Positions 14,389-32,027 of a stretch of DNA of 64,000 bases are shown piece by piece (position 1 is the stretch's first letter; every line of letters begins with the position of its first letter). Below the pieces are notes generated by a model, which did no database searches, had not been told where the DNA came from, and saw only the letters and a list, made by a program, of their open reading frames with translations. Both the position numbers and the translations under genes were made by a program. Origin of the DNA: Atopobium massiliense (GTDB lineage Bacteria > Actinomycetota > Coriobacteriia > Coriobacteriales > Atopobiaceae); NCBI GenBank assembly GCA_900343135.1, contig OPYK01000004.1:62001-126000 (forward strand), written 5' to 3'.

Positions 14389-14392
14389 AGCA

Positions 14393-15133
14393 CTACCTTG
14401 CTGCCTTCATGCGGTTTAACATAACGCGATTTGCCTCAAGTTCATATTCATCATCCAAAGGTTCAAGTTCATAATTACCTTTACGTGCAAGCGCGCGCTG
14501 CATAAGATAATCAATAACGCCAGGATTTTTTGGGAAGATAGGCCCGTGAATGTATGTCCCTACCACATTTTTGTATAAACAACCCTCAAAGCCACTTTCG
14601 CCGTCGTTACCATAACCGCACAGCACGCGTCCTAACGGCTGCACGCCAGCCCCTAAGTGCGTGCGTCCCGCGTGGTTTTCATATCCAACAATGGGAGTTG
14701 AACTTATGCTGCTTTGAATAGCAATATTGCCAATAAGACGCGGCTGTCCCCTATCGGTATATAAATCTACGAGCGACAGCCCCTGCAGCTTTTCATCTTG
14801 CATCATATACGAATGTCCCAAGAGCTGATATCCACCACAAACAGCCGCAAGTACCCCGCCATCTTCAACATAAGCGGAAAGTTCAGATTTATAATTTTGC
14901 AGGGTTTCACATACGATTTTTTGCTCGCGATCTGAACCGCCACCAATAAATACAATATCGGCTAACGTCAAATCGAGGGTATCGCCAACATGTATTTCGC
15001 GCACGGTGCAGGCAATGTTGCGCCAAGCACAACGCTTTTGAAACACGAGCATGTTTCCCGAGTCGCCATACAAGTTGAGTAGTTCAGGGTATAAATGAAA
15101 CATCGTAAGTTCATGAGTATGCGTATGGTTCAT
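14393..15133 (-). CDS. gatD: Lipid II isoglutaminyl synthase, glutamine amidotransferase subunit GatD
   Basis: A CobB/CobQ-like class I glutaminase of 246 residues that supplies ammonia to MurT for amidating the alpha-carboxyl of D-Glu in lipid II. The N-terminal block HLYPELLNLYGDSGN is characteristic. The nucleophile is Cys99 in AAVCGGYQLLG and the catalytic His is His196 in GTYIHGP. The ATG at 15133 is preceded by GGGAG and gives the normal length; the frame is open 17 codons further upstream, into the end of murT. murT ends 10 bases before this start, so the two subunits are co-transcribed, as in Gram-positive bacteria generally. Confidence 0.95.
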   Translation of the reverse strand: MNHTHTHELTMFHLYPELLNLYGDSGNMLVFQKRCAWRNIACTVREIHVGDTLDLTLADIVFIGGGSDREQKIVCETLQNYKSELSAYVEDGGVLAAVCGGYQLLGHSYMMQDEKLQGLSLVDLYTDRGQPRLIGNIAIQSSISSTPIVGYENHAGRTHLGAGVQPLGRVLCGYGNDGESGFEGCLYKNVVGTYIHGPIFPKNPGVIDYLMQRALARKGNYELEPLDDEYELEANRVMLNRMKAAR

Positions 15134-15143
15134 AATTCTCCCG

Positions 15144-16589
15144 TTACGCCGTTTTGCTATCAGAATTTGAACATAGCTGTTCAAGACGAGCTTTAACTGG
15201 CCATAATGCCGAGTAATTCGTAAGCACGTACAGCGGGTACGAACTCAAATCTGCGGATGCTGCTGTACAAGCAGCAAGCGCTTCATCAATATCTGAAGCA
15301 AGACTACTATCAAACCCAGCATATTTTAACCGTACACGCATATCACATGCACGAGTGCCGCCACACATAAGATGTGGTTTGTCTTCGCTAGTCAACCGTT
15401 CAAAATCAACGTCCCAAAGCCACGACACATCGCAGCCGTCGTTATCGTTGTCGTTAATGCAAATATAAATATGTTTGCGGCGCGAATCTTGCTGCAAAAG
15501 CGATATGTTTTGATTAAAACCGGTTGGGTTTTTTGCAAGGTTCAAAATAATCGGCATTCCCTTATAAACAAAATGTTGCAGGCGACCGTTTTGAGGGTGA
15601 AATTGCTGAAGCGTTTCCGCAAAATATTGAACTTGAACTCCCACCTCAGATAACGCACTCCATGCACAAACGATGTTGTACACCATATACATACCGGAAA
15701 ACGCTGCGTGTATCTGCACCGATGATGCAGAAGACGCGACGTCATGACTCTGCGATTGCACGGGGCTTTCGTCACGTGCATCAACATGCTGAGCTGTGTG
15801 CGGCGCGGTGTGTTCAATAATGCACGAAAGACCAGCTTCACTAATGGAAATATCGCGTGCGGCATAATCGAGCTGCGGGCGCTTAAACTCACAGGAAGGA
15901 CAATAAAAATTGCCAAGCTGCGCATACGTACGCGAGTGATACAGCAGCTTTGCTCCACACAACTGGCAAAATCGCGCTTCGGGTACACGGTCGATGAGAG
16001 CGGGCAATGTTTGAGATACGCCCACATAACGCACGGGATTTCCTGCCTTTTTCACCCTATGTGCAACAGCCATACTGAGCGGATCATCGGCACACACGAT
16101 AAGCATGGTTGCGGGTGACGCTATAAGAGCAGTTGCAATTGTATCTTGAACTCTATCCATTTCGCCTACCCTATCGAGCTGGTCGCGAAAGAGATTAAGC
16201 AATACAAAATACCGGGGTTTAAGTGCAGGAATAACAGTTGCGCACGAAAGTTCATCAACCTCTAAACTTGCCCAATCGCTTGCCGAATGTTGAACAAGCG
16301 CAGCTGCGACGCCTGCCGGCATGTTTGCACCAACACTGTTACACGCCACACGAAAACCTGCGCGCTCAAGCGTTTGTGCAATGAGGTTGTTTGTTGTTGT
16401 TTTACCGTTTGTGCCGCATACAACAATTGAGCCATCACGTAAGTGAGCGGCTGCATGCTCGATATAGTTGCTGTCAACATGTAACGCAATAACACCTGGC
16501 AGCTGCGATGCCGAGCGCTTGCATACATCGCGAAGCAGCCATGTACACATGCTGGCAAGTATATGTGCGATATGCTCTTGTAAAGCCAT
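15144..16589 (-). CDS. murT: Lipid II isoglutaminyl synthase, Mur-ligase-like subunit MurT
   Basis: 481 residues. The Mur ligase P-loop GTNGKTTT is at 59-66, and the central domain has EVDELSCATVIPALKPRYFVLLNLFRDQLDR. MurT is distinguished from other Mur ligases by a zinc-ribbon insertion, seen here as CQLCGAKLLY ... FYCPSCEFKRP at about residues 208-235, and by the C-terminal DUF1727-type domain (NPTGFNQNISLL, and near the end YVLTNYSALWPVKARLE). With GatD it amidates D-iso-glutamate of lipid II, which favours cross-linking. An Ala/Ser/His-rich linker at about 260-285 is poorly conserved. The ATG at 16589 has GAAGGA five bases upstream. Confidence 0.95.
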   Translation of the reverse strand: MALQEHIAHILASMCTWLLRDVCKRSASQLPGVIALHVDSNYIEHAAAHLRDGSIVVCGTNGKTTTNNLIAQTLERAGFRVACNSVGANMPAGVAAALVQHSASDWASLEVDELSCATVIPALKPRYFVLLNLFRDQLDRVGEMDRVQDTIATALIASPATMLIVCADDPLSMAVAHRVKKAGNPVRYVGVSQTLPALIDRVPEARFCQLCGAKLLYHSRTYAQLGNFYCPSCEFKRPQLDYAARDISISEAGLSCIIEHTAPHTAQHVDARDESPVQSQSHDVASSASSVQIHAAFSGMYMVYNIVCAWSALSEVGVQVQYFAETLQQFHPQNGRLQHFVYKGMPIILNLAKNPTGFNQNISLLQQDSRRKHIYICINDNDNDGCDVSWLWDVDFERLTSEDKPHLMCGGTRACDMRVRLKYAGFDSSLASDIDEALAACTAASADLSSYPLYVLTNYSALWPVKARLEQLCSNSDSKTA

Positions 16590-16640
16590 AAAATTCCTTC
16601 GTACTAATCACGCGCTGACTAACATACGCCTTCGTACGTG

Positions 16641-17309
16641 CTAGTTTGCTTCACTATCGGTTGTTGCATGCTCACCATCATCGCTGAGTGAAAGCGCAGT
16701 CATATCTTGCGCTGCATATTCTTCGGGTGTAAGAACATCTTCGATACGCAAATTAACAGCAGATACAACAAGTCCGGTCATACCCATTACCTGGTGAACA
16801 ACCACACGTTTTACGTCCTCAAACACCTGCGGCGCATACGCACCATATTTGATGAGCACCGAAATATTTACTCGCACAGAAGCATCGTTGCCAACCTCAA
16901 CCGTTACGCCTTTACGCGAATCCGAAGCGCCAAGCACATCTTGTACACGGTTAAACCAGCTACCTTTCATGCCAACAACATCGGGCACATCGCGCATTGC
17001 AAGAGCGACAATTTTTTCTATAACGCCATTAGAAAACGTGAGTGAATCTTCGCTATCTTCGGTGTCGATGTCGATATCCGTCGCATCTTCAGCTGTATCT
17101 TCGCGAGCCGCTGCAGCTGCACCTTCAGCGGCTTCGGCAGTAGTGTTTGCACGATCGTTGGCATCCGATACAGATTTTTGTGTATATTCATCTGCTACAT
17201 CGGCAGCCGAAGGTGCACAGTCAGGTGCACTGTCGTTTTGGTTTGCATCAGGCGTAATGAGAGTTTGGTGCTGTTCACCAAGGTTTTTTACATGTGATGA
17301 TGTATTCAT
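16641..17309 (-). CDS. Asp23/Gls24 family envelope stress protein
   Basis: The C-terminal 110 residues match Asp23/Gls24: FSNGVIEKIVALAMRDVPDVVGMKG, then VTVEVGNDASVRVNISVLIKYG and the VFEDVKRVVVHQVMGMTGLVVSAVNLRIEDV-type tail. The first 90 residues are acidic and low-complexity (TAEDATDIDIDTEDSED-like). In staphylococci Asp23 is a membrane-associated protein tethered by AmaP and involved in cell-envelope homeostasis. Here it is the third gene after amaP and DUF2273 on the same strand, the usual set. Start: ATG 17309, or GTG 17318 three codons earlier; AAGGG lies 11 bases before the ATG, and neither spacing is ideal. Confidence 0.9.
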   Translation of the reverse strand: MNTSSHVKNLGEQHQTLITPDANQNDSAPDCAPSAADVADEYTQKSVSDANDRANTTAEAAEGAAAAAREDTAEDATDIDIDTEDSEDSLTFSNGVIEKIVALAMRDVPDVVGMKGSWFNRVQDVLGASDSRKGVTVEVGNDASVRVNISVLIKYGAYAPQVFEDVKRVVVHQVMGMTGLVVSAVNLRIEDVLTPEEYAAQDMTALSLSDDGEHATTDSEAN

Positions 17310-17357
17310 CCTTCGCACATCCCTTCGTTTTGAATATGAATATGGCTGCCGCGCATG

Positions 17358-17855
17358 TTAGATTCGCTTATCGCGAAACATGTCTTTTATGAGTTTAAGC
17401 AACCGTGGTTTTCCATCAAATAGCTGGCCAAACGCAACACCTACGGCAACACAAACCACAATGAGCAGCACGCGCCACACACCAATCCAAAAGATAAGCA
17501 GCGCGGCAATGAGTCCGCACACACCACCTATTACCGCATGTTCGCGACCAGGGAACGTGGCGTGTAGCCATGCGCCCGAAAGGATACATTGGAGTATATG
17601 AAAAGATGAACTCTGCGAACATGAGATATTCTCCGAGGCATCGGTCTTAGCGTGCGTATGTACACATGGAGCATGTTCATTCTGAGCATGTGATTCAACT
17701 TGAACTTTTTGTTCAGATACACCGTGCATATCACGTTTTTGTGCTGCACCACGTGCTGAAGCCGCGCAAACGTCACATACCTGCGAGGACTGTTCAGCGC
17801 TCGATTGAACCTTCAATCCGGGTTGCAGCTGCGTATCAATGATCGTTTGTGCCAT
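17358..17855 (-). CDS. DUF2273 small membrane protein with extended N-terminus
   Basis: 165 residues. Only the last 65 residues are conserved. They hold two adjacent membrane helices (AVIGGVCGLIAALLIFWIGV, then WRVLLIVVCVAVGVAFGQLF) followed by a short basic tail, the DUF2273 pattern found between amaP and asp23 genes. The first 100 residues are Gln/Ser/His/Cys-rich and look disordered, with several single Cys residues; typical DUF2273 proteins are only 60-70 residues. It is spaced two bases from amaP and about 50 bases from asp23. The function is probably structural, in the Asp23 membrane anchor complex; this is inferred from context. Confidence 0.8.
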   Translation of the reverse strand: MAQTIIDTQLQPGLKVQSSAEQSSQVCDVCAASARGAAQKRDMHGVSEQKVQVESHAQNEHAPCVHTHAKTDASENISCSQSSSFHILQCILSGAWLHATFPGREHAVIGGVCGLIAALLIFWIGVWRVLLIVVCVAVGVAFGQLFDGKPRLLKLIKDMFRDKRI

Positions 17856-17857
17856 AA

Positions 17858-18646
17858 CTACTCCTTGCTGCTATGTACATTCGGCGATGCATCGTAATGC
17901 GTCATAGACACGGTAATTTCTGATGTTTCCTGCACGCTTTTTGGCTGCGATGGCACATCAGGCGTATCGGCTCCTCCGTGGGGCATAGCAGACGCTGCCT
18001 TACTCTCTTCATATTGAACGTTAGAGCGATCTTCAGCCGTATGCACAGCCGCGCTGTCTAGGGCAAAAGATGCGTCATATTCACTATCGTAGGTGTCATC
18101 TAAATACTCATCTTGCATATCATCTGCCGTGTTATACGCCTGCGCGCGAGAAAACTCAAGCTTAATGCCATCTACATGTTCACCAACAATTGCCTGCAAG
18201 CTTTGGGCGAGTGCATCATGAAGCTGCTTTGCTGCTTGAATTAAATCGCAGGAAACACGCGGTTGAACCCGTGCGCTTACACGAACATGACCATACTTTC
18301 CCGATTTTACAAGCATGTTTGTTACCACAAACAGGCCATCTTCTTCGATAGTATGTTTTGCCTGAGATGCAATTGCCGCGCGAGAAACACTTACTTGACT
18401 TGATTTATCCTTATGAATAATTACAACTTTGCGATTGCGAACAAAAAGCGCGCGTACCAGCATAAGAAAGCAACCAAAGGCAAGAATACAACCTGCGACT
18501 ACCATCGATATACGCATTTCGCGTGACGTTAATGCATAACTAATGTACGGCTGCGTTGCGGTGCAGCATGCCAGTGCAAGGACGCCAAAAAAGTACATCC
18601 CAACAAGGCCATACACCAAAAAACATATGCGCTTAAAGAGCCCCAT
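17858..18646 (-). CDS. amaP: Alkaline shock response membrane anchor protein AmaP
   Basis: 262 residues with two N-terminal membrane helices (about 8-32 and 45-68), then a conserved soluble domain (VVTNMLVKSGKYGHVRVSARVQP) and an acidic, disordered C-terminal third. This is the AmaP arrangement, in which two helices anchor Asp23-family proteins to the membrane. The start ATG at 18646 has GAAGGGA six bases upstream. It is the first gene of amaP-DUF2273-asp23, and the murT-gatD-acyltransferase genes follow in the same direction after a 51-base gap. The whole 5.6 kb may therefore be one envelope-related unit. Sequence identity to named AmaP proteins is probably low; the call rests on topology, the conserved core and synteny. 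Confidence 0.85.
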   Translation of the reverse strand: MGLFKRICFLVYGLVGMYFFGVLALACCTATQPYISYALTSREMRISMVVAGCILAFGCFLMLVRALFVRNRKVVIIHKDKSSQVSVSRAAIASQAKHTIEEDGLFVVTNMLVKSGKYGHVRVSARVQPRVSCDLIQAAKQLHDALAQSLQAIVGEHVDGIKLEFSRAQAYNTADDMQDEYLDDTYDSEYDASFALDSAAVHTAEDRSNVQYEESKAASAMPHGGADTPDVPSQPKSVQETSEITVSMTHYDASPNVHSSKE

Positions 18647-18925
18647 AGGTGTTCCCTTCGATAAACAAATGATTGGTTTCTATAATACTAGCAAAAGCGG
18701 ACAAATAATTGTGCTACAGGAGCGTCAAGCTAAAAACATGACGCAATAAGCCTTCGCTAACACTCTGCATAATGCCTGGTAAATGCTACAATAGTTGTAA
18801 TCCTATTCATTGGGCAAAAAGTGTAACACGATAGAAACGAAATTTTCATGTTGCTTATAGAACAACGTGGTAGGATAAACAACCATGTTCGATAGATATT
18901 CGTTCTAATGTATAAAGGAGTGCCT

Positions 18926-19927
18926 ATGAGAAGTAACTCACATGCTGAGCAATTTAATCTCAAAGAGACGCAAATTGCTATCAAATGTCTAAAAGACTAT
19001 TTTGAACGTGAACTTTCTTCAACGCTCAATTTGCTACGTGTAACTGCACCGCTGTTTGTGCAACCACAAACCGGTTTGAACGATAATCTTTCGGGTACAG
19101 AAAAAGCTGTTGATTTTTACATTACTAAACCGCAGCTACACTGTGAAATCGTACATTCTCTTGCCAAATGGAAACGTATGGCACTGTACCGCTACGGTTT
19201 TATGCCCTATGAAGGTTTGTACACCGATATGAATGCTATACGTGCAGATGAAGACCTCGATGCGCTGCATTCTGCATACGTTGACCAGTGGGACTGGGAA
19301 AAAATTATTTTGCGCGAAGATCGCACGAATCTTTTTCTTCAAACCATTGTACGCGAAATATACCAGGTATTGCTGCGTACAGAAAGCTATATCAACGGCG
19401 TATATCCCTTAATTTTGAACAAGAAATTACCCGACACTATTACGTTTTTGAACTCCCAGGATATGGAAACTGAACTTCCTTCTGCAACGCCGAAGGAACG
19501 CGAGGATTTCTTTGCCAAAAAGTATGGTGCAATTTTTGTTCAAGGCATTGGTTGGCCGCTTGAGCACAGCAATAAACCTCACGACGATCGCAGCCCCGAC
19601 TACGACGACTGGAAACTCAATGGCGACATCATTGTATGGAACCCCGTGTTGAATTCTTCTTTTGAAATTTCGAGCATGGGTATTCGTGTTGATGCAAAAT
19701 CAATGAAAAAGCAGCTTGAATTTGCACACGCTACCGACCGCTTAGAGCTTGATTTCCATAAAGCTATTATGGAAGAAAAATTGCCACTTACCATTGGTGG
19801 CGGTATTGGTCAATCACGTTTGTGCCAATTTTTCCTGGAGAAACGTCATATCGGAGAAGTTCAATGCAGCGTTTGGGACAACGCTACACTTGAACACGCT
19901 AAGGCAGATAATGCATGCATTTTGTAA
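18926..19927 (+). CDS. asnA: Aspartate-ammonia ligase (asparagine synthetase A)
   Basis: A class II aaRS-like enzyme of 333 residues that makes Asn from Asp, ammonia and ATP. Characteristic stretches are LLRVTAPLFVQPQTGLNDNLSGTEKAV (N-terminal), KWKRMALYRYGF, GLYTDMNAIRADE and the C-terminal LPLTIGGGIGQSRLCQFFLE, the class II motif 3 region. The ATG at 18926 follows AAAGGAGTGCCT. The 279 bases upstream, shared with the divergent amaP, contain TACAAT at about 18787 but no clear matching -35 box and no T-box. Base composition is slightly more AT-rich than the neighbours. A strong hairpin terminator follows. Confidence 0.96.
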   Translation: MRSNSHAEQFNLKETQIAIKCLKDYFERELSSTLNLLRVTAPLFVQPQTGLNDNLSGTEKAVDFYITKPQLHCEIVHSLAKWKRMALYRYGFMPYEGLYTDMNAIRADEDLDALHSAYVDQWDWEKIILREDRTNLFLQTIVREIYQVLLRTESYINGVYPLILNKKLPDTITFLNSQDMETELPSATPKEREDFFAKKYGAIFVQGIGWPLEHSNKPHDDRSPDYDDWKLNGDIIVWNPVLNSSFEISSMGIRVDAKSMKKQLEFAHATDRLELDFHKAIMEEKLPLTIGGGIGQSRLCQFFLEKRHIGEVQCSVWDNATLEHAKADNACIL

Positions 19928-19997
19928 TTGCAACGTTACCACAGCTAAGCAATCCGTTTGACATAATGTGTGCATAACCCATACGTACACAGTAGCA

Positions 19998-20046
19998 CGC
20001 ATATGCGCGAAAAGGGCACATGCTCTTCTCGCGCATATGCGATTTT
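19998..20046 (+). terminator. Rho-independent terminator after asnA
   Basis: CGCATATGCGCGA (19998-20010) pairs perfectly over 13 bp with TCGCGCATATGCG (20029-20041) and is followed by ATTTTTG. It lies 70 bases downstream of the asnA stop and in front of the minus-strand initiator tRNA. Confidence 0.85.
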
Positions 20047-20118
20047 TGTAAGTTTTCCACAATGCCGCGCAGGTTGCAGGACACGGAAAAGAATGTATGT
20101 AAAAGGGAAAATAAAAAA

Positions 20119-20195
20119 TGGTCGCGGGGGCCGGATTTGAACCAACGACCTCCGGGTTATGAGCCCGGCGAGCTACCAGACTGCTCCACCCCGCA
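20119..20195 (-). tRNA. Initiator tRNA-Met (anticodon CAU)
   Basis: A 77-base gene with encoded CCA (20119-20121 on the minus strand). The anticodon arm is CCGGGCTCATAACCCGG, with the three consecutive G-C pairs (GGG/CCC) diagnostic of the initiator. The T-arm carries GGTTCAAATCC. The acceptor is TGCGGGG opposite CCCCGCG plus discriminator A, so the first pair is U1-G72. Initiator tRNAs normally have an unpaired or weak 1:72 position (C-A in E. coli); a U-G wobble is an unusual but still weak pair. Confidence 0.96.
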
Positions 20196-20524
20196 CCGTA
20201 ATAAACGAGCTATCGCTCAAATGCAAAAAGTAATTTTACGCGCCCGCACACACAGGCGCAAGCCTCGATTACATATAAACAAAAATTGAGACTAAACAAC
20301 ACAAGCCCTCCATGAATCTGGCTTGAACGAGCAACGAATGGTTACATTTTGTAAACATTGGGAGATATGAACCCTGCGCGCGTGTAGAACCTTTTATACT
20401 TACACAATCGAAACGTGCATCAAAAGCACGGATGCACGCTCGATACGTAAGCTGCAAAGACAGCACACACGCGACATACGCGCGCGTGTACACCACGTGT
20501 TTTAAGCAATAGAAAGTGAATGTT
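20196..20524. other. Intergenic region upstream of the PuuD-like gene, with two inverted repeats
   Basis: No gene is seen in these 329 bases. Two symmetrical elements stand out: TTACA-TTT-TGTAA at 20342-20354, an operator-like palindrome, and a hairpin CGTGCATC/GATGCACG (20414-20421/20431-20438) enclosed by ATCG/CGAT. Either could regulate the downstream amidotransferase gene. No riboswitch class was recognised. Confidence 0.4.
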
Positions 20525-21313
20525 ATGACACAACCAGCTACCCATACCGCGGCATTACATAAACGTAATAACGACGAAGTTCAAGAAGGAGCGGCTTCAC
20601 GTCCGCTTATTGGTATCTGCACTCGCACGCTTCAAGGCACCGACGAATGTGCATGCGTACAAACGTATATCAATGCAGTTATTGCATGCAATGCTACACC
20701 ACTGTTGTTGCCTGGCACCACCAACACGCAGGTTATTCAATCGTACGTTCAAGCTGTTGACGGCATTATCATACCTGGTGGTGGCGATGTAAATCCTGCG
20801 TTCTACAATGAGCCCCACGAAGATGTGACGCAAATTCCGGATATTGAACTTGACAAATTTGAACTTGAACTTATCCGTGAGATAATACGCTGCGATAAGC
20901 CCCTTTTTGGTATTTGTCGCGGCTATCAAATTATTAACGTTGCATTAGGCGGAACCTTATACCAAGATATACAAACACAGCTGCCCCATGCGCATAACCA
21001 CAGCATGGAGCCACCATATAACGGCGTTGCACACCCGGTGCGCGTACTTAACCATACACCGCTCTTTTCCACATTAGAGCGTTACCTCGACAATGAGGCA
21101 TGCATTGGCGTAAATAGCCGCCATCACCAAGCATCAAAAGCGCTTGGAGAAGGTCTTATGCCAATGGCATACTCAGATGACGGCATTTGCGAAGCGTTTT
21201 ACCTACCTTCAGCACGCTTTGTTCAAGCTGTTCAATGGCATCCTGAACTCATGTTCTCAACGCATGACGCACAAGCTGAACTTATTCAATCATTTGTTGA
21301 TGCATGCAACTAA
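20525..21313 (+). CDS. Class I glutamine amidotransferase-like hydrolase (gamma-glutamyl-GABA hydrolase / PuuD family)
   Basis: A 262-residue peptidase C26 protein. PLIGIC near residue 25 starts the domain, with GGGDVNPAFYNE, the nucleophile Cys in FGICRGYQIINVALGG and the catalytic His in VQWHPE following. Family members hydrolyse gamma-glutamyl amides, for example gamma-Glu-GABA in putrescine breakdown. No other putrescine gene is in the window, so the substrate is uncertain. The ATG at 20525 is preferred over a GTG three codons upstream (20516), because AGAAAG lies nine bases before it. The coding sequence contains the TTGAAC hexamer three times within 40 bases (encoding IELDKFELEL). Confidence 0.85.
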   Translation: MTQPATHTAALHKRNNDEVQEGAASRPLIGICTRTLQGTDECACVQTYINAVIACNATPLLLPGTTNTQVIQSYVQAVDGIIIPGGGDVNPAFYNEPHEDVTQIPDIELDKFELELIREIIRCDKPLFGICRGYQIINVALGGTLYQDIQTQLPHAHNHSMEPPYNGVAHPVRVLNHTPLFSTLERYLDNEACIGVNSRHHQASKALGEGLMPMAYSDDGICEAFYLPSARFVQAVQWHPELMFSTHDAQAELIQSFVDACN

Positions 21314-21333
21314 GCTACATGCGGAGCACTCGA

Positions 21334-21371
21334 CCTACTGTGCGCACAGGTAAATCTGCACGCACAGTAGG
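21334..21371. terminator. Bidirectional hairpin between convergent genes
   Basis: CCTACTGTGCG (21334-21344) pairs perfectly with CGCACAGTAGG (21361-21371), with further pairing possible in the loop (CAG/CTG). It sits between the ends of the PuuD-like gene (plus) and the HTH-aminotransferase gene (minus). A short AAAACG follows on the plus strand; there is no classical U-tract. Confidence 0.6.
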
Positions 21372-21394
21372 CAAAACGTTCACCGACGTGTGCG

Positions 21395-23092
21395 TTACTG
21401 GTGATAATACGATAAAAATGTTGTGAGCTTATCCATTGCTGTTTGGAGCGTTTGCAAACGCGGCAGATACACAATGCGGAAGTAGCCCGGTGTTTGCCAG
21501 TTAAAGCCCTTACCATGCACAATAAGCACCTTTTGTTGACGCAGCAAGTCGAGGGCGAATTTTTCGTCGTCACTAATATTGAACCGTGCAGGATCGAGTT
21601 TGACAAACATATAAAATGCCGCATGCGGCTTTACCACCGATACGCCTTCTATCTGCTGCAGAGCGTTATAGCAAAATTCGCGCTGTTCAAAAACACGTCC
21701 TTTCGGCACCAAATATTTCTCAACACTTTGATAGCCGCCCAGCGCTGTTTGCACAATTGATTGTGCTGGCACATTGGAGCATAAGCGCATGTTGGAGAGC
21801 ATATTAATGCCCATCATGTAATCTTGCGCACGGCTTTTATCACCCGATAAACTCATCCAACCAATACGAAAACCAGCAATCATATGCGACTTTGAAAGGC
21901 CGCTAAACGTTACGCAAAACACATCGGGAGCAAGCGACGCAATGGACGTATGCGTTTTGCCGTCCATCACTAAACGATCGTAAATTTCGTCCGAAAAGAT
22001 AATTAAATTGAACTCACGCGCAATTTGAACAATTTGTTCAAGTAACTCTTTGCTGTACACCGCACCTGTTGGATTGTTTGGGTTGATGATAACAATTGCT
22101 TTGGTACGAGGGGTAATCTTTGAGCGGATATCGGCAATATCAGGGAACCAATCTTGCTGTTCATCGCACAGATAGTGCACCGCAGTGCCACCTGCAAGCG
22201 TTGCACACGCCGTCCATAATGGGTAATCGGGGCTCGGGATAAGTATTTCATCTCCCGCATCAAGAAGTGCTTGCATACATAAATTAATAAGTTCAGATAC
22301 GCCATTACCCGTGTAAATATCTTCCATTTGAACATTTGGAATACCCCGGAGCTGGTCGTACTGCATGATTGCTTTGCGTGCAGCAAAAAGACCCCTGCTA
22401 TCTGAATAGCCTTCACATTCTTTGAGCTGCTGTTGCATATCAAAGATAACCTCGTCAGGAGCACGAAAACCAAAAGGAGCGGGGTTACCAATGTTCAATT
22501 TGTACACGTGATTTCCCTGCGCTTCCATGCGATAGGCTTCATCAACAACAGGACCGCGCACATCGTACAAAACATCGTTGAGCTTCGTTGATTTAGTAAA
22601 CACACGAGAAGCACGCGCAAAAGATGGTGCTTGAGGAGTGCCGTCTGTCACATTACTGCTCGTTTCACAAGACGTGTCCGCAGGCTCAGATCCACCAGAA
22701 GACTGCTGCGATACATGACTGAAAGCGTCATCCGTAATACCATCATCCTTAGCTGCGTCTTGTACTGCAGATACTGTTCCTTCATAAGAACCGTCCACAT
22801 GATTGGGCATACTCACAGCTGTCATATCCGCTTCATGGGAGGCAGGTTTATCATGCTGCACAGATGCGTGCATATCACACAACGTATCTGTGTCACTACC
22901 AGATAACCCCAGCATATCGCACAGCACGTCATACGTTTCACGCCGCGGCTGACTTTTCCCATTCATATACTGACTTAGTTTGCTTTTTCCCAGCTTAATA
23001 CCACGTTCTGCAGCCATATCTATAACGTCAACTTGTCGATAATTCATGCGACGCATAGCATCCCTAAGCTGTTTGGCAAATGTTTGTTTCAT
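21395..23092 (-). CDS. XRE-type HTH domain fused to AlaA-like alanine transaminase
   Basis: A 565-residue fusion. Residues 1-65 form a Cro/C1-type helix-turn-helix (KQLRDAMRRMNYRQVDVI ... KLSQYMNGKSQPRRETYDVL). Residues 66-160 are a Ser/Asp/Thr-rich linker. From about residue 164 the sequence follows E. coli AlaA closely: KLNDVLYDVRGPVVDEA, LNIGNPAPFGF, INPNNPTGAVYSKE, FSDEIYDRLV, and the PLP lysine Lys401 in FSGLSKSHMIAGFR. AlaA makes alanine from pyruvate and glutamate. The fold-type I aminotransferase part resembles that of MocR regulators, but the HTH here is of the lambda-repressor type rather than GntR. The protein may be enzyme, regulator or both. The ATG at 23092 has GAGG five bases upstream. 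Confidence 0.9.
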   Translation of the reverse strand: MKQTFAKQLRDAMRRMNYRQVDVIDMAAERGIKLGKSKLSQYMNGKSQPRRETYDVLCDMLGLSGSDTDTLCDMHASVQHDKPASHEADMTAVSMPNHVDGSYEGTVSAVQDAAKDDGITDDAFSHVSQQSSGGSEPADTSCETSSNVTDGTPQAPSFARASRVFTKSTKLNDVLYDVRGPVVDEAYRMEAQGNHVYKLNIGNPAPFGFRAPDEVIFDMQQQLKECEGYSDSRGLFAARKAIMQYDQLRGIPNVQMEDIYTGNGVSELINLCMQALLDAGDEILIPSPDYPLWTACATLAGGTAVHYLCDEQQDWFPDIADIRSKITPRTKAIVIINPNNPTGAVYSKELLEQIVQIAREFNLIIFSDEIYDRLVMDGKTHTSIASLAPDVFCVTFSGLSKSHMIAGFRIGWMSLSGDKSRAQDYMMGINMLSNMRLCSNVPAQSIVQTALGGYQSVEKYLVPKGRVFEQREFCYNALQQIEGVSVVKPHAAFYMFVKLDPARFNISDDEKFALDLLRQQKVLIVHGKGFNWQTPGYFRIVYLPRLQTLQTAMDKLTTFLSYYHQ

Positions 23093-23525
23093 AGCGCCTC
23101 ATTTCTGTTGGTTACCCAACATCGCTACCAATACTGCATAAGGTTCAATTTCCCTCAAGTTCAATTTTTCGTTGAGTTCAATTTTGTGGTAAGTTCATTT
23201 TACGCCAAGTTCAATTAAAAGTTCAAAATAACAACGAACCCAAGGTTCATCCAGCCTTGGGTTCAGTATAGAGAGTTCAATTTTGAATATCACGCACGCC
23301 ATACAAACAATAAAAATAATCGCAAAAAACACACGTTTACCTGCTTGTTTTGCACATCGAACCTGTGCTAGTTTGATGCAAGTTTACTGCACGCGTGGCA
23401 CGCTAAACGATGTTAAAAGTTCAACTTTTTTTGCAGATTATGTGTAAAAGATGTTCATAAAGTTCAATTTCCGTGCAGATTTTATGCATGCTGCACGTTT
23501 GCTGCAAGAAAAGTTCAATGTAACC
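23093..23525. other. 433-base intergenic region with nine same-direction GTTCAA copies and a hairpin
   Basis: No gene is seen. Nine GTTCAA hexamers (nine on the plus strand, none reversed) occur between about 23142 and 23519, many as AAGTTCAA. By chance about 0.1 per orientation would be expected. A perfect hairpin GAACCCAAGG/CCTTGGGTTC (23236-23245/23255-23264) probably ends the flavodiiron transcript coming from 23526. The rest is AT-rich, with no recognisable RNA. Confidence 0.75.
23236..23264 (-). terminator. Hairpin downstream of the flavodiiron gene
   Basis: A perfect 10-bp stem GAACCCAAGG/CCTTGGGTTC with a nine-base loop. On the minus strand it is followed by GTTGTTATTTTG, a T-rich tract. 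It lies 260 bases after the fprA stop. Confidence 0.6.
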
Positions 23526-24803
23526 TTAATGAAGCTTGCACGACACATCATCGCAAGGATCGTTGTGCACCGTATGGGGATCTGGCTCAAAGAACGGATT
23601 ATCACGCACCGCTTGTGCTAACGCGTGGGCAAGTGTATCAAGCTGCTGAGCCGTCTCCTCTTTTACACCCGAATTAATGGTGATTTCCGGTTCAAGGTAG
23701 GTAATGTCCTTAAGCCCATCAAGCTCCTTTTTCATGAGCGAATTTGCAAGCGGACCCCAGGTACCGTTCTCGATAAGACCAACCCAACGGTTACGCAAAT
23801 TGTGACTGTGAATGTCATGTAGTAAGAACTGCATACGGTCAAATATGCCCATATTATAGGTAGCAGCCGCAAACACCCAGGTAGAATATTCAAATGCGCG
23901 CGACAGCATTTCTGACAGGCTTGTTTTCGACACATCAAACACACGAACATTGCGCACGCCAAGCTCTGCCAATTTAACGGATAGAATGTCGGCAGCATTT
24001 TCGGTGCCACTATACACCGAACCATAAAAAATAGCGACCGAGTTAATTTCGGGAGTATACGTTGCCCATTTCTTATAGCGATCCAAAATGAGGTGGAAAT
24101 CTTTTCGCCAAATTACCCCATGAAGCGGACATATGTAGTTAATCTCGAGCTTTCCTGCCTTCTTTAACAGCGCATTTGTTTGCGGACCATACTTGCCCAC
24201 AATATTGGTGTAGTAGCGACGGGTTTCATCTGGCCAATCGCGCTCCCATTCAACTTCATCAGCAAAAATACCACCCGAAAGTGCACCGTAGGCTCCAAAG
24301 GCATCGGCAGCAAACAAAATCTTAGACGTGGTTTCGTAGCTCACCATTACTTCCGGCCAGTGAACCATCGGCGCCATAATAAACTGCAGCGTATGTGCAC
24401 CTAAGCACAGGGTGTCGCCCTCTTTTACAACAATTTTCCTGCTATCAACATCAAAATCGTAAAACTGCTCCATCATGCGAAACGCCTTTGCTGTGGCAAC
24501 AATTTTCATAGCAGGATATTTTTCAACGAGCGCAGGAATTGCCGCACAGTGATCAGGTTCCATATGATCGACCACCATATAATCGAGCGGACGCCCCGCA
24601 AGCACGTGTGCCAAATTTTCGTGGAATTGTTGTTCAACTGCAGCGTCAATACCGTCCATTAAACAGGTTTTTTCATCAACAATAACGTAATTGTTATATG
24701 ACATACCTGCTGGCACCTCATAGGTGTTTTCAAAAAGTGCAAGTCGCCTATCCTGCGCACCTGTCCACCAAACACCATCAAGCACCTTACGTACGTTATA
24801 CAT
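23526..24803 (-). CDS. Flavodiiron protein (FprA-type oxygen/NO reductase)
   Basis: 425 residues in the two-domain form. The metallo-beta-lactamase-like diiron domain carries HMEPDH (His80, Glu82, Asp84, His85), then MVHWPEVM, ADAFGAYG and CPLHGVIWR as further ligand regions. A flavodoxin-like FMN domain starts at about residue 258 (VAIFYGSVYSGTENAAD). These enzymes reduce O2 to water or NO to N2O in the cytoplasm of anaerobes. There is no C-terminal rubredoxin or flavin reductase extension, so an external electron donor is needed. The last 25 residues are His/Asp/Cys-rich. The ATG at 24803 has GGGGGAG four bases upstream. Confidence 0.94.
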   Translation of the reverse strand: MYNVRKVLDGVWWTGAQDRRLALFENTYEVPAGMSYNNYVIVDEKTCLMDGIDAAVEQQFHENLAHVLAGRPLDYMVVDHMEPDHCAAIPALVEKYPAMKIVATAKAFRMMEQFYDFDVDSRKIVVKEGDTLCLGAHTLQFIMAPMVHWPEVMVSYETTSKILFAADAFGAYGALSGGIFADEVEWERDWPDETRRYYTNIVGKYGPQTNALLKKAGKLEINYICPLHGVIWRKDFHLILDRYKKWATYTPEINSVAIFYGSVYSGTENAADILSVKLAELGVRNVRVFDVSKTSLSEMLSRAFEYSTWVFAAATYNMGIFDRMQFLLHDIHSHNLRNRWVGLIENGTWGPLANSLMKKELDGLKDITYLEPEITINSGVKEETAQQLDTLAHALAQAVRDNPFFEPDPHTVHNDPCDDVSCKLH

Positions 24804-24894
24804 ACGCTCCCCCTTCTCTTTACCCGTTGTGAACCTGCGTTACGCCCGAAGCTCTCTGCACTATATCGGGTTATGCATATTTCACCTAATCAAC

Positions 24895-24963
24895 TATAAT
24901 ACTCCTAGGTACAACAACACATGGTGTGTATACCCAAACACTGCGCCATTTAACAGGAGTATT
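24895..24963 (+). promoter_or_regulatory. Candidate promoter and long-range inverted repeat upstream of the EEP-fold gene
   Basis: TATAAT at 24895-24900 is a consensus -10 box, with only a weak -35 (TTATGC). It overlaps the first half of a 9-bp inverted repeat AATACTCCT (24898-24906) / AGGAGTATT (24955-24963). The second half lies 20 bases before the ATG. The pair could be two operator half-sites or a leader hairpin. Confidence 0.4.
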
Positions 24964-24983
24964 GGCAAGTACGAGGAGCCGAT

Positions 24984-26729
24984 ATGGACGACCAAAAAGC
25001 AGCACCAATGCAACCTACTCATGAGACTCCAGCGGATATAACGGCTGACGTGTGCACTACAGATGCGCACGTTAATAAGCCGGCTGATACTCAAGCTGAT
25101 GTACAGGTTAATGCGCCAACTGATGCTCAAACTGATGTACAGGTTGCTGATCCGACTGATGCTCAAGCTGATGCAGACACCCAGGACGTTCACGCGGATG
25201 AACCAGACACAGATGCTCATACTCATGCTGATGAAGCTCCAGATATGTGCGAAGCGGACGCTCCTCACACGAGCGACAATGATTCACAGGCTCAAGATGC
25301 ACTACTGGATGACGAAGCCGCTCAAGTTCAAGACGAAGTTCAAACTCAAGCTGAAGTTCAAGACGAAGTTCAAAATCAAGACGAAGTTCAAGCTGAAGTT
25401 CAAGATGAACCCCATGATACCTCACGCGCAGCTCATCACAAACATGCTGCAGACGATCCCATATCAAAAAGCACCTCTACGCTGCAAACACTTAATCGAA
25501 TTCCCTTTGTAAACCTCACCGACCACACACGGGCACAAGCGCGGAAAGAAAGACGAGCTCGTAAAAAAGTTCAAAAACACAAGTTTTCGGTACTTATAAC
25601 CATTCTTAAATGCGTCATAGCTGCCTGCGTGCTATTTGGTATTGCATTTACTGGCTATGCTGCATACCTTGAGAGCTACTACAAACGTATCGTCGATCCT
25701 TACATTTGCAAAATCGATGACCCAACAAGTGGCGATACTACAACGCAGCCCAAACAAGTTGAGTGGAACACAACCTATACCGCTACTACGTATAACGTGG
25801 GATTTGGTGCCTACACGCCTTCATACACGTTCTTTATGGACAAAGGTGCAATGAACGATGGGACGCAAACCCAGGGTACCTATGGTAAAGCCCGCAGTAA
25901 GCAGGCAGTTATCGATGCGACAAACACATCACTTGAAACTATCCGCACGGCAAACAACGGCAAGACACCCGATTTTTTACTCTTCCAAGAAATTGACGTA
26001 CAATCCGATCGTAGCTATCAGATAAATCAGGTTGAAGAAGCAAAAAAGATGTTTAGCAGCTACAATTCAACCTTTGCATCCAATTTTCACTCAGGATTTC
26101 TTATCTATCCTTTGCACGATATGCATGGCGCTGTGCAGTCGGGCTTGCTTTCCATGTCGGCAATTGACATCACCAATGCAACTCGTTATAGCTATCCCGT
26201 TTCTACCAAGTTCCCTGATAAATTCTTCGATCTCGATCGTTGTTTTCAGGTAACTCGCTATCGCACGCCCGACAACCATGAACTGGTTATGATTAATTCG
26301 CATATGTCGGCATACGACGTAAACGGTGAATACCGTGCAAAACAGCTCAAAGTATTGAACAATTTCCTTACCGAAGAACGTGCGAAGGGTAATTACGTTA
26401 TAGCAGGTGGCGACTGGAATCATGCGCTGGGAGGCTCAATTTCTGCGTATCCGTCTCAGCAACAAATTCCATCATGGGTAGCAGAGCTTAACGACAGCGA
26501 TCTCGCAGAAGGTTTTCGCTACGTTGCTCCCGACAACCTAAGCGACACGCCTACCTGCCGTGGTGATGATATCCCTTATCAAAAAGGTGTTACGTACACA
26601 ACAACTGTTGATGGCTTTATGGTTTCGGACAACATAGATGCGCACGCAACAAACATCGATACCGAATTTGCGTCGAGCGATCATAACCCCGTACTCCTGC
26701 GTTTTACCCTTATCCACCAGGGAAAATAA
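24984..26729 (+). CDS. Membrane-anchored endonuclease/exonuclease/phosphatase (EEP) fold protein with repetitive acidic N-terminus
   Basis: 581 residues. Residues 1-150 are Asp/Ala/Gln/Val/Glu-rich, with a VQDEVQ-type repeat at about 115-141, and look disordered. A basic stretch (RAQARKERRARKKVQ) precedes a single membrane helix at about 201-228. The C-terminal 320 residues are an EEP domain: TYNVGFGAYTP, DFLLFQEID (metal-binding Glu), MINSHMSAYD, IAGGDWNHAL and ASSDHNPVLL. The positive-inside rule puts the acidic tail in the cytoplasm and the EEP domain outside. Substrates of the family range from nucleic acids to phospholipids; none can be named here. The ATG at 24984 has GAGGAG upstream. 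The repeat region carries six GTTCAA copies, encoding Val-Gln. Confidence 0.85.
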   Translation: MDDQKAAPMQPTHETPADITADVCTTDAHVNKPADTQADVQVNAPTDAQTDVQVADPTDAQADADTQDVHADEPDTDAHTHADEAPDMCEADAPHTSDNDSQAQDALLDDEAAQVQDEVQTQAEVQDEVQNQDEVQAEVQDEPHDTSRAAHHKHAADDPISKSTSTLQTLNRIPFVNLTDHTRAQARKERRARKKVQKHKFSVLITILKCVIAACVLFGIAFTGYAAYLESYYKRIVDPYICKIDDPTSGDTTTQPKQVEWNTTYTATTYNVGFGAYTPSYTFFMDKGAMNDGTQTQGTYGKARSKQAVIDATNTSLETIRTANNGKTPDFLLFQEIDVQSDRSYQINQVEEAKKMFSSYNSTFASNFHSGFLIYPLHDMHGAVQSGLLSMSAIDITNATRYSYPVSTKFPDKFFDLDRCFQVTRYRTPDNHELVMINSHMSAYDVNGEYRAKQLKVLNNFLTEERAKGNYVIAGGDWNHALGGSISAYPSQQQIPSWVAELNDSDLAEGFRYVAPDNLSDTPTCRGDDIPYQKGVTYTTTVDGFMVSDNIDAHATNIDTEFASSDHNPVLLRFTLIHQGK

Positions 26730-26740
26730 ACATTAAACTT

Positions 26741-26807
26741 AATTTGAACTAAACTTGAACTTTATTTGAACGCGCTGCGCGTACCAGGCAAACACCAGGT
26801 ACGCGCA
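26741..26807. terminator. Hairpin and three TTGAAC copies between convergent genes
   Basis: TGCGCGTACC (26776-26785) pairs perfectly with GGTACGCGCA (26798-26807) between the EEP-fold gene (plus) and nadE (minus). Just before it, at about 26741-26771, TTGAAC occurs three times in the same direction. There is no U-tract. Confidence 0.55.
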
Positions 26808-26867
26808 TTACAACAGGGAGCTAAACGAAAAGCCTAAACACAACAAACAGCAACGTACCGCACGGGT

Positions 26868-28820
26868 TTATGCCGTGAGATGTTCAAGATCGGCCAGCCA
26901 AAGTTGAACATGGGCGTCTGACGGCATGCGCAAATCACCACGAGGCGACAGAGCAACCGTACCCACTTTAGGACCATCACACATACAACTACGCTTAAAT
27001 TGCTGGCTAAAAAAGCGCCGGTAAAACGTTCGAAGCCACATCAAAATGGTTGCATCATCGTAGCTTCCTTCAAACGCATGCCGCGCAAGCCGATAAATGA
27101 CGTGAGGCGCAGCAGCTTTACGCAGCACGTAGTACAAAAAGAAGTCATGCAGCTCATATGGACCTACTAAATCTTCAGTTTTTTGAGCAATAGTGCCATC
27201 ACTTTGTGCAGGCAACAGCTCGGGCGACACTGGTGTATCAAGAATATCAAGCAGCACATCATATACGCCATTGGTGTCCGCACCTGCCGCTGCCCTATCC
27301 GCCTCATATTGAACCACGTAGCGTACCAGCGTTTTTGGCACGCCAACATTAACGGCGTACATCGACATGTGATCGGCATTATAGGTAGCCCACCCAAGCG
27401 CGAATTCGCTTAAATCGCCCGTGCCAACAACCAAACCCGATTCCTGATTCGCAATATCCATAAGAATTTGGGTGCGCTCGCGCGCCTGCGCGTTTTCGTA
27501 GGTTACATCCTTATCTTCTTCACTATGACCAATATCTGCAAAATGTTGACGCACGGCAGCAACGATAGAAATTTCGCGCAAGGTTGCACCAAGCGCATCG
27601 GCAAGCACAGCAGCATTACCGTGCGTACGTTGCGTTGTGCCAAAACCGGGCATAGTAACAGCAATAATTGCCGAGGGACTCAAATCGATACAGGCACAGG
27701 CACGCACGCATACAAGCAGCGCAAGCGTGGAATCAAGACCGCCAGAAAGCCCCAATACCAGCGTTTGTGCATGCGTATGCAACATGCGCTTTGCCAAACC
27801 ATGTGCCTGAATAGACAAAATTTCTTCGCAGCGATGCGCGCGCTCAGAAGGGTCATGCGGAACAAACGGATGCGGGTCGATATAACGTGTAAGGTGACAA
27901 GGTTCAAGTTCAAGTTCAAATTGCTGATAGACATATTGAGGAGCGTTTGGCATGTGTGGATCGAATACTTCAAAGGTAGATGTTCTGCGACGCTGCACGT
28001 CAAGTGAGGTAAGATCGATTTGTGTGGTAATAGGCGTTTCGCTAAAACCTGAACTTTCGGCAAGAATGGTGCCATTTTCTGCAACCATGTTGTGCGCAGC
28101 AAACACAACATCCTGCGTAGATTCGCTCCACGGCGCACACGCATACACATACCCACAGATACAACGTGCACTTTGCTGCGCAATAAGACTGCGGCGATAG
28201 CGTGATTTATTTATTTGAGCAGGTGTTGCACTTAAGTTCAAGATAAGCGTTGCACCTGCACGCACATGATCGGATGAAGGCGGATTTGCAACCCATACGT
28301 CCTCGCAAATCTCAACAGCAACACGCAATAAAGGCATAGATGTGCAACTAAAAATCTGACGTATACCAAACGGAATATGAGTTTTACCTGCAAAATCAAT
28401 GTATACAGGCGTATCAAACCCGCGCGAAAAATGGCGTAACTCGTAAAATTCGTCATAGGTAGGAATCGCACGCTTGGGAACAATACCAAGAATTGAACCT
28501 TTATGCGCAACGATAGCGCAATTATACAGTTTTGAGTGATACGAAACAGGACAACCCAATGCAATAAGTGCATCAATATGCGCAGTTTGCTCAAGGAAGT
28601 GCTGCAGCCCCTCCTCACAGCTCCCCAGAAGTGCAGCTTGCAAGAACATATCGCCGCAGGAATATCCGCTTACGCATAATTCGGGAAGCACAATAATACG
28701 CGCGCTGTCGTACTCATATGCTTGCGTAACATCGGCAATAATGGCGTCGATATTTGCTGTTACATCGCACGGCTCAATATGTGGGCTGCGCGGTGACACG
28801 GTAATAAATCCGTCTTTCAT
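26868..28820 (-). CDS. nadE: NAD+ synthase, glutamine-hydrolysing
   Basis: 650 residues in two domains. The N-terminal nitrilase-type glutaminase shows the catalytic Glu in IVLPELCVSGYSCGDMF, the Lys in PKRAIPTYDEFYE and the Cys in EICEDVWV. The C-terminal synthetase has the PP-loop LGLSGGLDSTLALLV and the ATP-binding GTGDLSEFALGWATYNAD. It converts deamido-NAD to NAD using ammonia channelled from glutamine. The ATG at 28820 has AAAGGG about five bases upstream; a GTG two codons earlier is too close to the ribosome site. It is the last gene of the acpS-nnr-alr-tsa unit, 29 bases after the Tsa fusion gene. The stretch encoding QFELELEP contains three tandem TTGAAC copies. Confidence 0.95.
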   Translation of the reverse strand: MKDGFITVSPRSPHIEPCDVTANIDAIIADVTQAYEYDSARIIVLPELCVSGYSCGDMFLQAALLGSCEEGLQHFLEQTAHIDALIALGCPVSYHSKLYNCAIVAHKGSILGIVPKRAIPTYDEFYELRHFSRGFDTPVYIDFAGKTHIPFGIRQIFSCTSMPLLRVAVEICEDVWVANPPSSDHVRAGATLILNLSATPAQINKSRYRRSLIAQQSARCICGYVYACAPWSESTQDVVFAAHNMVAENGTILAESSGFSETPITTQIDLTSLDVQRRRTSTFEVFDPHMPNAPQYVYQQFELELEPCHLTRYIDPHPFVPHDPSERAHRCEEILSIQAHGLAKRMLHTHAQTLVLGLSGGLDSTLALLVCVRACACIDLSPSAIIAVTMPGFGTTQRTHGNAAVLADALGATLREISIVAAVRQHFADIGHSEEDKDVTYENAQARERTQILMDIANQESGLVVGTGDLSEFALGWATYNADHMSMYAVNVGVPKTLVRYVVQYEADRAAAGADTNGVYDVLLDILDTPVSPELLPAQSDGTIAQKTEDLVGPYELHDFFLYYVLRKAAAPHVIYRLARHAFEGSYDDATILMWLRTFYRRFFSQQFKRSCMCDGPKVGTVALSPRGDLRMPSDAHVQLWLADLEHLTA

Positions 28821-28849
28821 AATCACCCTTTGTTAGTAACTACCTGCAC

Positions 28850-31800
28850 TTATGCATGCGCACCATGAGGGAAGCGCTTAGGCGGCCAATTGGGGCTTAC
28901 AACGGGCTCGGCTGCACACGACCAGTCGCCAAATTTTGAATTTGGATTTGCATCAAGCGTAAAGTCTGAAAGAATACCCGCACGCCAGTTGCGCAAAGCC
29001 ACTAATGCAATCATCGCGCCATTATCGCCGCACACCACCATGGGCGGCACAGTAACACGAATGCCGCGCTTGGTAAATTCTTCGATGTATGCGTTGCGAA
29101 GTTCGGTATTTGCCGCAACGCCACCGCCCACGCAAAATTCTCGTGCACCCGTTTCTTCAAGTGCACATAAGGCTTTCGAAACTTGAACATCGATAATCGC
29201 TTGTTCAAATGACGCCGCTAAATCGGGAAGATTGATGGGGCGACCAGCCTTGTTCTCACGTTCAATATATGTAATCACGGCAGTTTTTAAGCCTGATAGC
29301 GAGAATCGATAGTCGTGCGAGTACATCATGGCACGCGGGAACGAAATTGCATGTTTGTTGCCCTTAGCAGCAAGTTTAGAGATGATAGGACCTCCCGGGT
29401 ATCCCAGACCAAGCGCCTTTGAAACTTTATCGAACGCTTCACCCACCGCATCATCGATAGTTGCACCTAAAATTTCGTATTGACCCCACGCTTTTACGTG
29501 TACAAGCAGGGTGTTGCCACCTGAAACAAGCGACGCGATAAAAGGCGGCTTTAAGTCGTTTGTTTCGTAGAGGTTTGCAAGCATGTGCCCTTCAAGGTGA
29601 TTAACTGCAATAACGGCAAGATGCGCCGTTGCACATAAGCCCTTCGCAAAGGCAATCCCCACCACAAGTGCACCAACAAGGCCAGGACCTGCGGTAACGC
29701 CAACGGCAGAAAGATCGGTGGGATAGAGCGCTGCACAGTGTAGGTGCTTTGCCGCTTGCTGCATAACTTCTTCGTACACACCAACAATTGCTTCAACATG
29801 CTTACGTGATGCAATTTCGGGAACAACGCCACCAAACCGAGCATGAAAATCGAGCGAGGTTGCCACCGCATGAGCAATAACTTCACCGTGTGAATCGATA
29901 ATTGCCAAACCCGTTTCGTCACATGACGACTCAATAGCAAGAATTAAATCGCCCGCAGCAGCAAGATGCTCACGCTCTTGTGGTGTATGTGGCGTGCAAA
30001 CGGGCGGCCAAGGACGAATTGACGCTGCCGGTTGCGCAGTTTCTGCTGGTTGTTGGTGGTGGCTTGAGTTATCCTCACAGCTATGTTTAAGCGGTAATTG
30101 AACCGAAAGAATATCGGCATCAGAGCCATCTGCATAATAGTGAGGACGCGTTGCAACACGTGTGGCACCCATAGCACTATACAAGGCTTGAGCTGCAGTA
30201 TTATGCGTATCAACTTCGAGCGTGAGTGTTTTGGCACCATACATTTGCCCGTCATAGGCAATGCGTTCAAACAAGCGCGATGCAATGTGTTCATGGCGGC
30301 GATCCTGTTTAACACATATGTCGTACAGCTGAATTTCGCTTCCCGCCATAACGCCACCGGCAAAACCGATAATCGAAGCTTCGTCGTGAGCAACCCACCA
30401 GGTTCTTCCCTGCTGCGTAAGTTCATCATAAAATTGCTGCTTATTCCAGGGTGTATGCGACGAGTCTGCATACACGTCTTGTTCAAGGGCAGCGACTTGT
30501 TCAATATCGTTAATCGACATAGGTCGAAGTTGCAAATGCAAACCGGCAAGTTCATCATGCACGCCCGTTGTAAGAATACTTGAACTTTCTTTCATACCAA
30601 GACGCAAGCGCTCATGTTCTTCGGCATCTGAAAGACGTGTGTAAATAGGAAGTACCAGCGCAGGATCGCCAGATTGAACATTTCCGGTGTCCACATCGTG
30701 CAAATAAGCACGGATAAGGCCTACACCCGTTGGGTGCCACAGCTCTTCAGGTGCGATTGAACAAAGACCTGCTTGTTCAAATTGCTCACGATACTTAACA
30801 AGCGCATCGCCCGAAAAAAGCATCGTATCTTTATCTTTGTGAGCAACAAGTGCATCGATAACATCTTGAACTTTATGAACGGTTTCGATAGCAAATTGTC
30901 GTTGAACTCCGCTATCAGAAAGTGTATATATACCTGGATAAATTTCGTGACGCATAGCATCAGCAACAACGCACACACAGCCGCGAATGCCCGCATCCCA
31001 CATGTGCCAGGCAACAGCGTCAAGTGTGGACACGCCATACAGCGGAATGGTACCACCGCACGCCATACCTTTTGCGGTTGCAATACCAATACGTACACCC
31101 GTAAATGAACCAGGACCTCTACCAACGACAATGCACGAAAGGTCGCCAGTAGCGCAGTGTGCTTCATCCAAACAGGTTAAACTCGTGGTTACAAGTTCAA
31201 CATTTGCTTTTCTGCGGCACATATGGTCATGGGAAACTACCTGCGTAAGTTCAGAAGTTGCATATGACGCTGGCTGCTGTTCATGGTTTTGGGATGCAGG
31301 CATACTCAGCGTTGCTGCACAACACGCAAGCATATCCGACGACGTATCAAACGCCAACACATGCGTAAGACGCTCCTTAATGCGCGTTGCACATGGCGCA
31401 CTTGCAGCTGCAACGTCATGACGTGCGTCATACGCCTGCTTAAAGCGACGCAGCAGCTCATTTGAACGCGGTGAGTGCGCTGTAAACACCAATGTACGCT
31501 CAGGTTCATCTTGAGTGGTAGCATCCACTTCATTACGCGTAATTGTTACATCAACTCTATTTGAACCAATTTCATCACTAAACTGCTCGCCCCACTCAAT
31601 AATGCACGGACCATCACTATCAAGCACGTCATAGAGCCCGGTGTCTTCAAGCTGCAGCGGATCGGATAGGCGGTATAAATCAAAGTGGTACAGAGGCATA
31701 TCGCCACCTTCATATACCATCTCAATGGTAAAGGTGGGGCTTGTGACATCGTCCTGGATATACATACCTTGAGCGATACCTTTGGTAAATTGGGTTTTAC

Positions 31801-31960: not shown

Positions 31961-32027
31961 TAAACGCCTCCATATCACTGCTGCGCATTGGCACAAACCT
32001 TGCAGCTCATGCCATGCGCGCCATTAG

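Follow-up and report, generated by a model that had tools for sequence, protein, structure and literature searches.

The window (the whole stretch of 64,000 nucleotides analysed here) lies at C11:62001-126000 in an assembly of 1.548 Mb, whose 16 contigs were all joined for counts. Its minus strand carries the gene for HTH-AlaA, a protein of 565 amino acids, and the gap directly upstream of this gene holds an array of the hexamer GTTCAA (Table 1). The closest solved structure for the aminotransferase part of HTH-AlaA is AlaA (4cvq, E=1.6e-168). The match of its HTH to PF13560 is barely above the cut-off. When the first 80 residues were searched against all PDB chains (phmmer), the four matches with E<0.1 were all to TP901-1 CI (E 1e-5 to 1e-3; best 1.1e-5). 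The N-terminal domains of the same repressor took Foldseek ranks 1-4, with weak E values (5e-3 to 3e-2) for a single-sequence model of pLDDT 73. The linker between HTH and aminotransferase measures approximately 24-94 residues among orthologs, with HTH-AlaA at the top end. No paper on HTH-alanine aminotransferase fusions was found in the literature.

The neighbouring fprA-like protein has its best named match in Atopobium sp. oral taxon 810 (64%; Atopobiaceae, Coriobacteriales), which makes a bacterium like the Atopobiaceae likely. Two tRNAs are the only RNA families in the window. The protein at 24984-26729 (581 amino acids) has no Pfam match; its low-complexity N-terminus consists of EVQ/VQ repeats, for which AAGTTCAA units code.

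Table 1. Positions of genes, domains and site clusters in the window
Feature	Position	Strand	Basis
HTH-AlaA: cI/XRE-type HTH, long linker and alanine aminotransferase; proposed site reader	21395..23092	-	Pfam and structure matches
HTH domain (aa 6-71), with recognition-helix segment KLGKSKLSQYMNGKSQPR	22880..23077	-	PF13560 HTH_31; sole such HTH found in assembly
Aminotransferase class I/II domain (aa 196-553)	21434..22507	-	PF00155
Proposed operator array upstream of HTH-alaA	23093..23525	.	Word counts; arrays in 28 orthologs
Site-dense domain	3801..64000 (C11:65800-126200, ending ~200 bp beyond the window)	.	Two-state HMM, segmentation, density map
Cluster of repeated AAGTTCAA in coding sequence (EVQ/VQ codons), low-complexity N-terminus of the protein at 24984-26729	25324..25403	+	Word counts, ORF
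Same-direction cluster (5), tandem gap	37599..37699	-	Word counts
Same-direction cluster (3), between two minus-strand genes	43842..43871	+	Word counts
Same-direction cluster (4), convergent gap	49662..49709	+	Word counts
Same-direction cluster, convergent gap (the full gap, 53548-53753, has 8 plus-strand cores)	53655..53748	+	Word counts

Our recount of the 433-bp gap agrees with the sequence-only reading, which had reported nine GTTCAA and no TTGAAC. The copies start on the plus strand at 23143, 23159, 23176, 23209, 23221, 23275, 23419, 23462 and 23513, with unequal spacers between sites, and a tenth core, AAGTTCATT, lies at 23191. As read from HTH-alaA, the sites are TTGAAC(TT). Under a first-order Markov model built on the AT-rich sequence of the gap itself, 0.45 GTTCAA are expected per orientation, with a maximum of 5 in 20,000 draws. 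The earlier expectation of about 0.1 was thus too low, yet the excess is real. The gap shows no clear -10 element. The four further same-direction clusters reported earlier, with five, three, four and five copies, are also present with these counts, the five at 37590-37702 lying on the minus strand.

Arrays upstream of orthologous genes and their probable reader

The association between array and HTH extends across the family. We took 30 orthologous loci, and the counts cover the 28 others with a placeable HTH, from 12 other genera. All 28 of these HTH-containing orthologs have at least four matches in the last 300 bp upstream of the start codon. Together, the ortholog upstream regions contain 211 pattern matches against 7.5 expected (overlapping patterns may count one site twice), divided 181 to 30 by direction in gene orientation. 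The family operator consensus, written on the opposite strand, is AAGTTCAATTT. In the relatives G080 and G062, AAGTTCAA clusters sit directly upstream of the HTH-AlaA ortholog. G010, from the same genus, has a stand-alone AlaA without HTH, and the region upstream of it is without an array. A tRNA gene immediately precedes this AlaA gene (C33:90391-91632).

Of 29 upstream regions, 14 have a TGCTAY-type -10 amid the sites. Spacings between neighbouring sites in ortholog arrays peak at about 12-13, 16-17, 21-23, 31 and 42-43 bp, and hint weakly at helical phasing (R = 0.34 at 10.75 bp, a value inflated by the kinship of the genomes). The recognition segment LGKSQLSQYxSGKT is almost invariant across the family. 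Fusion-length open frames are also present in other families of the order (probably Coriobacteriales).

The gap array is very probably HTH-AlaA's own operator, because array and HTH co-occur in orthologs and because the HTH resembles a CI repressor with AGTTCAYR half-sites. This half-site is that of TP901-1 CI, and a TTCA-to-TTGA change weakens DNA binding by the related phage 13 CI (PMC8516035). The TP901-1 OL oligonucleotide, AGTTCATGAAACGTGAACT, contains AGTTCA...TGAACT (PMC4941734). The AGTTCA core is common to the CI half-site and the HTH-AlaA array; the YR end of AGTTCAYR is unmatched in the HTH-AlaA sites, which have A then T instead.

The site-dense domain around the gene (Table 1) shows a graded preference. 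The closer a pattern is to the family operator, the more enriched it is there: 7.9-fold for AGTTCA, 10.7-fold for AAGTTCA, 12.6-fold for AAGTTCAA, 16.6-fold for AAGTTCAANWT and 20.5-fold for AAGTTCAATTT, although this last value rests on just 5 versus 6 sites. No second HTH like that of HTH-AlaA was found in the assembly. Considered together, the CI homology, the shared AGTTCA core, the almost invariant recognition segment, the unique HTH and the graded enrichment point to HTH-AlaA as the protein that probably reads the gap array. For the sites of the domain, it is a reasonable candidate.

We propose that the HTH of HTH-AlaA reads AAGTTCAA(TTT). Through the array, HTH-AlaA would regulate its own gene, and the simplest way to do so would be to bind DNA around that gene's promoter. 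Aminotransferases of class I form dimers. As the HTH is attached to such an enzyme by a long linker, an HTH-AlaA dimer might use two HTHs on flexible linkers to grip two single same-direction sites of variable spacing; alternatively, it might bridge distant sites, as proposed for EspR. In the studied species, this site has spread across 60 kb around HTH-alaA.

A bounded domain dense in the same site

We find that 302 of the assembly's 1424 sites fall within 60.4 kb of C11, at a density of 5.0/kb against a background of 0.61/kb (two-state HMM). Segmentation gives this domain sharp edges and a near-uniform density within. Per 60.4-kb interval, GTTCAA reaches 238 copies in the domain and 60 at best away from it (median 38.5), so that, small clusters elsewhere aside, the sites are confined to a single domain in the manner of MatP/matS. 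In the window, GTTCAA occurs 243 times on both strands against ~43 expected from dinucleotide shuffles, and AAGTTCA 134 times against 9 expected, an excess that covers genes as well as gaps.

Of 140 genomes from 35 genera of the family, none but this one reaches similar AAGTTCAANWT counts, and no comparable site density was seen in the parts read of G080, G062 and G064. Comparison lends no support to a function of the domain, as none of these relatives shows one like it. No strains of the studied species were found among viral contigs.

The site excess in the domain is a DNA-level property. Gene calls for the coding and intergenic tests came from a simple codon-score script and not from a standard gene finder. 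AAGTTCA density is 3.07/kb in intergenic DNA of the domain versus 0.19 elsewhere, and 1.86/kb in its coding DNA versus 0.22 elsewhere. Reshuffling synonymous codons by genome usage, with the proteins fixed, leaves 20.8 coding AAGTTCA expected in the domain where 96 are present. Outside the domain, coding AAGTTCA does not exceed such shuffles. Codon or amino-acid bias is ruled out as the cause by this synonymous shuffling, and a DNA uptake sequence or a HIP1-like genome-wide word is ruled out by the regional nature of the enrichment (0.6/kb outside blocks versus 5.0/kb).

Coding sites in the domain were probably made mostly by substitution, since residue identity at sites is lower without more insertions. 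Compared with relatives, 316 of 589 site-encoded residues are identical, where 370 are expected from residues of the same type elsewhere, and insertions affect 1.3% of site-encoded residues versus 1.7%, which is no excess. The outer flanks of the sites are unconserved. This, together with the lack of an insertion excess, speaks against a repeat element, whether tandem or interspersed. Variants that differ from the invariant core by one base stay close to background and show no clear excess. Some tandem 6-bp repeats, such as those at C9:139461-139529, do resemble local duplication.

Orientation is not random within the domain. Forty pairs of adjacent intergenic sites share a direction and 8 differ, which, alongside the bias upstream of all 28 orthologs, bears out the earlier suggestion of a directional signal. 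The HMM also finds 17 further site-dense blocks of 0.1-4.5 kb elsewhere in the assembly, so that clusters do occur beyond this locus. The other earlier suggestion, recent local duplication, would be a minor contributor at most, given the unequal spacers, the lack of insertion enrichment relative to orthologs and the shift of synonymous codons toward the site. Helical phasing of sites within the domain gave no clear signal.

Site density in the domain varies with gap type and is highest in convergent gaps (7.7/kb) and lowest in divergent ones (1.8/kb). Furthermore, the HTH-AlaA gene lies at C11:83.4-85.1 kb, and the domain, at 65.8-126.2 kb, is not centred on it. This combination argues against ordinary promoter control in the domain.

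The domain contains core genes, namely valS, clpX, tig, alr, glmS and eno, by recognisable sequence. On the left it begins in valS, either within the gene or at its end, amid a group of genes that relatives also keep together. Its masked tetranucleotide make-up and its GC3 fall inside the genome's range or close to it, GC3 being slightly low. We reject a foreign island in view of the core genes and the unremarkable masked tetranucleotide composition. In G080, the genes of the domain are scattered over several separate places, and the domain thus follows present position, not gene identity. This scatter, with the low density in the parts read of G080, G062 and G064, also speaks against an ancestral domain inherited with its genes. 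An alanine racemase-like gene (window 32028-33098) lies inside the same domain as HTH-AlaA, and a metabolic link is possible.

With respect to replication landmarks, dnaA is at C9:180 kb. The dif site, GATAATATATCTTATGTAAA, lies on a different contig from the domain (C7:2198-2217, minus strand) and has a perfect-pattern copy in relatives, where valS and dif are 90-430 kb apart. A matS-like domain centred on dif would depend on the order of the contigs. A small site-dense block (C7:1-2100), ~0.1 kb from dif, runs to the contig end.

Competing readings of the domain

Taken as a whole, the account in which the gap is a multi-site operator of HTH-AlaA, and the domain may be bound by the same protein, appears likely. 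For the domain itself, the reading we prefer is that HTH-AlaA binds throughout, as a regional bridging protein or a titration platform. This claim is weaker than that for the operator, and we would give it slightly less than an even chance. A more specific version, in which the enzyme-HTH fusion has turned into a regional chromosome organiser, its dimers bridging ~300 point-substitution sites over 60 kb and tying the domain to alanine/glutamate metabolism, is conceivable but rather unlikely.

The domain sites might be read by another protein with an AGTTCA core, such as a nucleoid or chromosome-segregation factor, while HTH-AlaA uses its own array only. Such a reader would suit sites that are densest in convergent gaps and not at promoters, and a domain that is not centred on HTH-alaA; MatP and SlmA use domain-restricted sites in both coding and intergenic DNA (PMC3116907). 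However, flank preferences in the domain match the family alaA operator, with enrichment rising with likeness to it, and HTH-alaA lies inside the domain. The assembly also lacks a second such HTH, although a reader of unrelated fold is possible. We consider a separate reader improbable, if a serious competitor.

Equally improbable, in our estimation, is that the sites are decoys that titrate the autoregulator, setting or buffering the HTH-AlaA level without any role in chromosome structure. There are ~300 sites of graded operator likeness close to HTH-alaA, and modelling papers such as PMC9725139 deal with how competing sites affect autoregulated factors. Titration, however, has no need of a contiguous, sharply bounded block.

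Import is less probable still. Here, the block would have been acquired through homologous recombination with a sister species, so far unsampled, whose whole genome is dense in the word, perhaps because it serves there as an uptake-type signal. Sharp edges, near-uniform density inside the block, its slightly low GC3 and the smaller site-dense genes elsewhere in the assembly would all fit. Yet none of the 140 family genomes shows comparable enrichment, the block's masked tetranucleotides and GC3 lie in the genome range or close to it, and the left edge falls inside valS, in a synteny block kept by relatives.

Functionless multiplication of the hexamer by local tandem duplication or slippage, to which some 6-bp tandem runs, duplicated stretches (C9:139461-139529) and the shared direction of neighbouring sites might point, is highly improbable: the array is kept family-wide upstream of one gene, isolated coding sites exceed synonymous shuffles, insertion frequency and lower residue identity at site-encoded residues fit substitution, and one-base core variants form no clear halo.

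Known systems and wider significance

MocR/GabR regulators, of which EnuR is an example, fuse a GntR-type HTH to an aminotransferase-like domain and often bind direct repeats. HTH-AlaA is similarly a fusion of a DNA-binding domain and a PLP-enzyme fold. Unlike them, it has a cI/XRE-type HTH in place of a winged GntR one, and a full-length AlaA-like enzyme. Among solved structures, the HTH has its closest relative in TP901-1 CI, whose half-site core is identical and whose HTH is likewise tethered through a flexible linker to a C-terminal part that oligomerises. In HTH-AlaA, however, the C-terminal part is an aminotransferase. Its sites are mostly single and in the same direction, whereas CI half-sites are paired as inverted repeats. 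Furthermore, CI is a phage protein, whereas HTH-AlaA is encoded by a chromosomal gene conserved in the family.

EspR of M. tuberculosis is also a cI/XRE-like HTH protein (Foldseek matches 3r1f/3qf3). Its sites are clustered in and between genes, and DNA bridging has been proposed for it (PMC3315491). In contrast to HTH-AlaA, EspR is without an enzyme domain, and its sites are genome-wide rather than in one 60-kb block. The MatP/matS, SlmA and Noc systems resemble the present case in that their sequence-specific sites occupy only part of the chromosome, and do so in both coding and intergenic DNA. There are 23 matS sites across the whole Ter region (PMC3116907), whereas here ~300 sites lie in 60 kb, with dif on another contig.

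The operator part of this account predicts, from sequence alone, which DNA word an enzyme-regulator fusion reads. Fusions of the HTH-AlaA type probably reach other families of the order (probably Coriobacteriales, an order common among gut and oral bacteria). The domain would be a rare natural case in which substitution has placed a regulator's sites within a single delimited part of the chromosome, synonymous positions in core genes among them. It offers a test between site-dense domains that shape chromosome structure, those that buffer regulator levels and those of recombination origin.

Several smaller features lie outside the domain. An smc-like gene (C7:109956-113567) has 31 site matches versus 9.7 expected from codons, and single genes at C8:216640-219063, C11:144707-148378 and C12:50692-52044 are also above codon expectation. 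Contig ends on C3, C5, C6, C7 and C8 are site-dense, and therefore more dense stretches may hide in assembly gaps. C14 has low GC, strong skew and enriched words of its own (GACGGAAA and ACTCCAG), and is possibly a mobile or repeat-rich region.
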